From Patescibacteria group bacterium (GTDB lineage Bacteria; Patescibacteriota; Patescibacteriia; Patescibacteriales; Patescibacteriaceae), in NCBI GenBank assembly GCA_028704945.1, contig JAQWEL010000005.1:1-64000 (forward strand): a stretch of 64,000 bases of DNA, in the 5' to 3' direction. The notes beneath the pieces were generated by a model. That model saw nothing but the letters and a program-made list of their open reading frames with translations, searched no databases and was not told where the DNA came from. Below are positions 38,884 through 48,350 of this stretch, piece by piece (the stretch's first letter is position 1; each line of letters begins with the position of its first letter). Made by a program: the position numbers and the translations under genes.

Positions 38884-39177
38884 TTACTTAACGATGATTT
38901 CCAATTCTCCACCCAAGGCAAAAACTATTTTCTGCAAAAATTGCATAGTAAAATTCTGATTACCGGATTCAAATCGAGCAATATTACTTTGTGTAGTGCC
39001 TATTTTTTCAGCCAACTGAGCTTGACTGAAGTTTTTTTTCTTACGTAATTGCATTATTAAATAGGTTAATTCTAGTTGCTTGCCGCATTCATCAAAGCCA
39101 ACTTTAAATTTTTTATCCTTCTTTTTTTCTTTAAGAATCTCGTCTAAATCTGGTGGGATATGTTTTTGTTTATTCAT
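38884..39177 (-). CDS. XRE-family HTH antitoxin
   Basis: 97 residues. The C-terminal HTH (about residues 35-90) shows LRKKKNFSQAQLAEKIGTTQS then NIARFESGNQNFTMQFLQKI, the lambda-repressor-like fold. The N-terminal 30 residues are charged (PPDLDEILKEKKKDKKFK) and probably neutralise the toxin. It overlaps the 3' end of the RelE-like gene by 8 bp in the toxin-first order typical of HigBA-type systems. It may repress its own operon via the palindrome at 39542-39557. Confidence 0.85.
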   Translation of the reverse strand: MNKQKHIPPDLDEILKEKKKDKKFKVGFDECGKQLELTYLIMQLRKKKNFSQAQLAEKIGTTQSNIARFESGNQNFTMQFLQKIVFALGGELEIIVK

Positions 39178-39535
39178 ACAATTCTTTATTACTAATAACT
39201 TCTTGGTAATTATCTAAAGCTTTATTAATTTCTTTTTTAGGTGTTTTGTCTGTTCTTTTCAAAAAAGCATGCAAAATTATTATATTCTTATTAACAAAAG
39301 TAAAATAAAATATTCTGTGGTAGTTATTAGAAACATTAATTCTTAACTCTCTAATTTTACCAACAACGTGTTTCGAATATGGTTCATCTAAATAACCTTT
39401 ATGTTCTCTTAAAAAATCTATATACTTAAAAAATTTTCGTTGCTCTACTAATGTCCTGTTATAAATATATTCCAAGACAAAACTTTTACCACTTATTTGG
39501 TTGATGTAAAACTTTACTTTGTATTCTATTTTCAT
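39170..39535 (-). CDS. RelE/HigB-like (phage Gp49-type) toxin
   Basis: 121 residues. The family pattern is VVGKIRELRINVSNNYHRIFYF then ILHAFLKRTDKTPKKEINKA: the core K-x-R-E-L-R strand and the H-x-F-x-K-K-t-x-x-T-P motif seen in HigB/Gp49-type ribosome-dependent mRNA interferases. The toxin gene comes first and overlaps the antitoxin by 8 bp. It presumably cleaves mRNA on the ribosome when unneutralised. Upstream lie a 16-bp palindrome and a candidate promoter carrying a LexA-type half-site pair. Confidence 0.88.
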   Translation of the reverse strand: MKIEYKVKFYINQISGKSFVLEYIYNRTLVEQRKFFKYIDFLREHKGYLDEPYSKHVVGKIRELRINVSNNYHRIFYFTFVNKNIIILHAFLKRTDKTPKKEINKALDNYQEVISNKELYE

Positions 39536-39541
39536 AATTTT

Positions 39542-39557
39542 ATATCATATATGATAT
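39542..39557. promoter_or_regulatory. Perfect 16-bp palindrome before toxin gene
   Basis: ATATCATATATGATAT, 7 bp from the toxin ATG. A likely operator for the XRE antitoxin or toxin-antitoxin complex. Confidence 0.6.
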
Positions 39558-39580
39558 TATGTCAAATACTTCTAATTAAT

Positions 39581-39609
39581 ATTATATACGAACAAAATAC
39601 GAAAGTAAA
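39581..39609 (-). promoter_or_regulatory. Candidate toxin-antitoxin promoter with LexA-type operator
   Basis: Minus strand: -10 TATAAT (39581-39586), 17-bp spacer, -35 TTTACT (39604-39609). Within it, plus-strand GAAC (39590-39593), seven bases, GAAA (39601-39604). The operator sits four bases from the -10, exactly as in the lexA promoter; one mismatch in the second half-site. An alternative -35 TTGACA at 39560-39565 would place transcription inside the toxin ORF and is less likely. Confidence 0.5.
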
Positions 39610-48293: not shown

Positions 48294-48321
48294 ATAATTA
48301 AAATTAAGTCTTATATTGTAT

Positions 48322-48350
48322 ATTATAATCGAACAAAAAACGAACGTCAA
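48322..48350 (-). promoter_or_regulatory. Promoter of lexA
   Basis: Minus strand: -10 TATAAT (48322-48327), 17-bp spacer, -35 TTGACG (48345-48350). The start is predicted near 48315, about 22 nt before the ATG. Confidence 0.85.
48331..48345. promoter_or_regulatory. LexA operator, direct-repeat type (GAAC-N7-GAAC)
   Basis: Plus strand GAAC (48331-48334), seven bases AAAAAAC, GAAC (48342-48345); GTTC-N7-GTTC on the minus strand. It fills the spacer of the lexA promoter, so bound LexA would block polymerase. The spacing equals the alpha-proteobacterial SOS box and differs from the Gram-positive inverted CGAAC-N4-GTTCG. Confidence 0.75.

Follow-up and report, generated by a model that had tools for sequence, protein, structure and literature searches.

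The promoter of a putative lexA gene in a Patescibacteria genome contains two GTTC motifs in the same orientation, which raises the question of whether this direct repeat is the LexA operator, i.e., the SOS box, of the lineage. The window, by which we mean the whole stretch of 64,000 nucleotides that was analyzed, belongs to the genome G000. On the minus strand the promoter reads TTGACG-TTCGTTTTTTGTTCGAT-TATAAT, with its 17-bp spacer at 48328-48344 and with CTTGACGTTCGTTTTTTGTTCGATTATAATATAC located upstream of ATGGGGGACAAAAAA in minus-strand order. The promoter scan counted 11 of 12 matches for TTGACG-N17-TATAAT, which bears out the near-consensus -35 and the consensus -10 described in an earlier note on this DNA. 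GTTC-N7-GTTC is located at 48331-48345, and its fuller form is GTTCG-TTTTTT-GTTCG (GTTCG-N6-GTTCG). The repeat, the hexamers and the spacing are all present as that note had claimed; however, the repeat does not lie precisely in the 17-bp spacer, since the -35 hexamer ends in the first G of the repeat, an overlap of one base.

Table 1. Features of the window discussed in the text; all positions refer to the 64,000-nucleotide stretch.
Feature	Position	Strand	Basis or remark
lexA promoter, -35 hexamer TTGACG	48345..48350	-	promoter scan
Predicted LexA operator (SOS box) GTTCGTTTTTTGTTCG, direct repeat, 11-bp period	48330..48345	-	19/19 order-level orthologs
lexA promoter, -10 hexamer TATAAT	48322..48327	-	17 bp from -35
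lexA, SOS repressor, 204 aa	47679..48293	-	TIGR00498, LexA_DNA_bind, Peptidase_S24
Second predicted LexA box TTTCGTATTTTGTTCG	39589..39604	-	in TTTACT-N17-TATAAT promoter of HigBA-like toxin-antitoxin pair
HigB/RelE-like toxin (Gp49), first gene behind second box	39170..39535	-	PF05973, 72.2 bits
HigA-like helix-turn-helix antitoxin, overlaps toxin gene	38884..39177	-	HTH_3, 47.2 bits

Judged from its product, the gene behind this promoter is a genuine lexA with intact autocleavage residues. In the profile search the product scored 192.9 bits against a TIGR00498 cut-off of 110.95, in agreement with the earlier naming of the downstream gene as lexA. The N-terminal LexA winged-helix domain and the C-terminal S24 peptidase domain both exceeded their curated cut-offs, which places the protein in the LexA family. 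In addition, the 204-aa product contains the Ala-Gly cleavage site and the Ser/Lys dyad of LexA; residues A91-G92, S126 and K164 align with those of E. coli LexA and are invariant in 16 LexA orthologs.

The bare GTTC-N7-GTTC pattern was detected once in the 64-kb window, with 0.93 occurrences expected by chance, and a pattern search of the window's genome revealed that the genome-wide count of TTCG..GTTCG at this spacing is not above the counts at other spacings. Because the bare 8-base pattern occurs at chance level, the case rests on position and conservation. The order-level sample comprised 61 genomes, 19 of them with this lexA (the window and 18 relatives, with 56-68% identity) and 42 without it. 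The repeat, whose absence from the lexA promoters of close relatives would have refuted the proposal of the earlier note, precedes every one of the 19 order-level orthologs, that of the same-genus genome among them, and always in the same register inside the 17-bp promoter spacer. The architecture shared by these 19 lexA upstream regions is TTG(A/C)C[T/G]TTC[G/T]-N6-GTTC[G/T]-N2-TANNNT, with two bases from the box to the -10, and Markov shuffles of the same regions yield such an architecture at ~1e-4 per region. The distance from the box to the start codon ranges from ~50 to >500 bp across orthologs; what is conserved is therefore the element and not the leader. In the same-genus genome G001, the box lies ~470 bp upstream of lexA, and this gap between the SOS promoter and lexA seems to hold a small ORF (L064:6142-6620, minus strand). 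The exact box KTTCG-N2-TTTTGTTCG was found in 17 of the 19 genomes with a lexA ortholog versus 2 of the 42 without one (Fisher 5e-11), and the two lexA genomes that lack it contain one- or two-base variants (TTTCG..CTGTTCT in G001 and TTTCT..GTTCG in G025). Uhrbacteria, Komeilibacteria, Berkelbacteria and other Patescibacteria have GTTCG-N6-GTTCG at lexA, and some lexA genes of Acidobacteria and Nitrospinota have TTTCG/GTTCG direct repeats with the same period.

Information content was computed over 79 lexA boxes, which had been selected by their TTC cores together with some of the promoter sequence. Position 1 is split between G and T. Positions 5 and 16, which were not used in selection save for at most 15 hand-placed boxes including most of the GTTCT group, are G in 88% and 87% of the boxes, respectively, and position 12 is G in 79%, so that the conserved unit is TTCG-N6-GTTCG. 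The consensus for the lineage is [T/G]TTCG-N6-GTTCG, the left half being mostly TTTCG.

The predicted regulon was examined by pattern searches of the genomes. The recA gene of the window's genome likewise has the box upstream, in a TTGCAT-N17-TATAAT promoter. The HigB/HigA-like pair behind the second box of the window (38884-39604, minus strand) appears to parallel the higBA toxin-antitoxin operon of Caulobacter, which LexA represses via a direct-repeat site (PMC13384398). A further box of G000, at C9:31122, lies in TTGACT-N17-TACAAT, after which come ~340 bp free of ORFs, then a small ORF and finally ruvB; its role as a ruvB promoter is that of a candidate only, because of the ~340 bp of non-coding sequence before the next ORF. 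Part of this ORF-free stretch folds strongly (z -2.9), and the stretch matched no Rfam family and had no homolog among 97 related genomes. Here (L062:3123-3380, corresponding to G000 C9:31122-31379), the box-bearing promoter is followed by ~230 nt of non-coding sequence that folds strongly, possibly an SOS-induced small RNA or leader. No dinB target was detected in G000, and there was no Pol IV-family (IMS) match in this genome. In five relatives the box precedes dinB operons, dinB being named by eye from the sequence, and a conserved ~82-aa ORF lies between the LexA box and dinB at L145, L164, L166, L168 and L169. In G001, the box precedes recA and a PIF1-like helicase gene. Over the stretch scanned, the recA promoters of lexA-bearing relatives outside the genus lacked the box, and a recA box general to the order was rejected, since within that stretch it was seen in the genus only. 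The same operator is thus shared by lexA and recA in G000 and G001, or by lexA and dinB in the five relatives, as expected of a LexA/SOS regulon. Relatives also have exact boxes directly in front of genes that, judged by eye, resemble antirepressor/BRO-type genes (L167 and L171) and, at L172, in front of a different kind of gene.

The last base of the half-sites was compared with the LexA recognition helix. Residue 43 of LexA aligns with E. coli Asn41, which contacts DNA (PMC3091678), and His46 aligns with E. coli Glu44, likewise a DNA contact. The comparison covered 92 distinct LexA proteins that have boxes. Ala43 was accompanied by G at both half-site ends in 68 and by another combination in one; of the proteins with Ser43, 17 have T at one end or at both and 6 have G. 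With His46 and Ser41 kept, 53 proteins combine Ala with G, 16 combine Ser with T, one combines Ala with another base, and none are crossed. A Fisher test uncorrected for relatedness gives 9e-14. Once the tree is considered, residue 43 has switched independently 4 to 6 times, never in the wrong direction but too rarely for significance, and for the four switches that fall in the His46 context the sign test reaches 0.125 at best. Departures from the pattern come from two proteins in which another residue takes the place of His46 (Cys in L105, Trp in L239) and from four LexA paralogs whose helix context differs. L019 combines Ser43 with a T half-site end without His46, and a Bacillus-type LexA, counter to the covariation, has Ser at the residue-43 position with GTTCG-like half-sites. 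The LexA of G000 has Ala43 and its boxes are GTTCG; that of G001 has Ser43, and all three promoter-type boxes found for it end in GTTCT. Because residue 43 was picked after the data had been seen, the covariation is presented as a hypothesis. We consider the chances about even that in Patescibacteria a change from Ala43 to Ser, with His46 kept, would turn the final G of the half-site into T (GTTCT in place of GTTCG), with the regulon boxes following and the lexA and recA boxes differing even within a genus (G000 versus G001). No description of a residue-43 switch was found in the literature searched.

Based on these comparisons, the repeat is very probably the LexA operator (SOS box) of this Falkowbacteria-like Patescibacteria lineage, mechanism included. 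The identity of the operator is well supported by comparison, and we infer physical binding, repression and induction from the LexA family. A LexA dimer would place one winged-helix domain on each half-site of the two tandem [G/T]TTCG motifs 11 bp apart, both lying on one face of the spacer, one helical turn apart. Bound LexA would cover the spacer and extend partway into each hexamer, and RNA polymerase would be excluded at the overlapped -35 and -10. In this way LexA is predicted to repress its own gene, recA, the HigBA-like toxin-antitoxin pair and a fourth promoter. Once RecA filaments form on damaged DNA, they would trigger LexA self-cleavage at A91-G92, involving S126 and K164, and the promoters would be released. 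Alternatively, the conserved element could be bound by a regulator other than LexA, or it could simply be a strong promoter, given that the -35, the -10 and the T-tract are conserved together with the repeats and that LexA binding is deduced from the family. However, just 2 of 42 same-order genomes without this lexA contain the exact box, the targets of the box belong to the SOS genes, the base in the half-site varies together with a residue of the LexA recognition helix, and related direct repeats precede the genes of LexA paralogs that are fused to methyltransferases, all of which makes this explanation improbable.

The fused paralogs combine LexA with DNA methyltransferase domains. At L020:1483-2946(+), a single ORF encodes LexA_DNA_bind, Peptidase_S24 and N6_N4_Mtase, with the direct-repeat box CTTCG..TTTCG upstream; at L024:1501-3597(+), LexA_DNA_bind, Peptidase_S24, N6_N4_Mtase and N6_Mtase are combined in one ORF, with TTTCT..TTTCT upstream. 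Many related genomes have LexA-like matches in open frames of ~490-635 aa, which may represent the same methyltransferase fusion. The fusion is possibly an SOS-linked DNA-modification enzyme, and a literature text search found no description of it.

The alphaproteobacterial LexA operator is GTTC-N7-GTTC, in Caulobacter (T/A)TGTTC-N6-TGTTC (PMC13384398, PMC9578287). The box described here shares with it the direct repeat, the GTTC core, the 11-bp period and the location in SOS promoters, and to this extent the alpha-proteobacterial type proposed in the earlier note holds. Two direct GTTC motifs with this period are present in the window, but most relatives in the order have TTTC as the left half. 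Furthermore, in contrast to the 5' T of the Caulobacter half-sites, the extension here is a 3' G (TTCG), with a left half that is usually TTTCG; the base before the left half is C in the window and in 67% of the boxes, and the T before the right half in the window falls within the T-tract. The recognition helix of alpha-type LexA probably also differs from SPATIHEH found here. In its GTTCG half-site with a 3' G, the box resembles the Gram-positive (Bacillus) box CGAAC-N4-GTTCG, although the repeat is direct here and inverted there, and the recognition helix LASSSTVHGHL of a Bacillus-type LexA (Cytobacillus) resembles LSSPATIHEHV of the window. It is very unlikely that the operator is such a Gram-positive-type palindrome misread in the earlier note: the GTTCG half-site and the helix pattern SxxT[VI]HxH would suit it, but none of these lexA promoters contains one, CGAAC-N4-GTTCG occurs genome-wide at two exact places, neither of them lexA or recA, and the conserved bases form two same-orientation half-sites 11 bp apart. 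Due to the absence of the inverted repeat there, a palindromic box at lexA and recA was rejected. A chance repeat, in which the T-rich spacer of an AT-rich promoter happened to hold GTTC twice, would fit the roughly one match expected in 64 kb and the unraised genome-wide count, but it has a negligible probability and was rejected on conservation and register (shuffles ~1e-4 per region), as the register is identical in 19/19 orthologs despite diverging flanks, and the box recurs at recA, dinB and helicase promoters and co-occurs with lexA across genomes.

Direct-repeat LexA operators also occur in another non-proteobacterial phylum, the Balneolaeota (TTACACATATTTTWTACATA; PMC7739468), with a different half-site sequence, and the number of known LexA motifs had reached 17 by 2021 (PMC8565304). 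Among reports of direct-repeat LexA motifs, PMC7739468 cites Sanchez-Osuna, Barbe, Erill 2017 for Patescibacteria. As far as it can be likened through this citing paper, the 2017 motif agrees with ours in superphylum, in being a LexA site and in being a direct repeat, and the two are most likely the same or closely related. Going by that citation, such a site in Patescibacteria was probably already described in 2017, and perhaps the window's box itself was already listed. The earlier expectation that a direct-repeat operator at this promoter would define the SOS box for the lineage is accordingly pre-empted, at least in kind, by the 2017 report as cited in PMC7739468.

The comparison provides a well-supported SOS box for a group of tiny-genome, mostly uncultured bacteria. 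The predicted regulon is small, consisting of lexA, recA, the HigBA-like pair and probably one more target, with dinB and a helicase gene in relatives. If the Ala43-to-Ser switch is true, these bacteria would provide a naturally occurring series of changes in operator specificity for a LexA that acts on direct repeats, and the covariation between residue 43 and the half-site would serve as a simple in vitro handle on the evolution of LexA operators.
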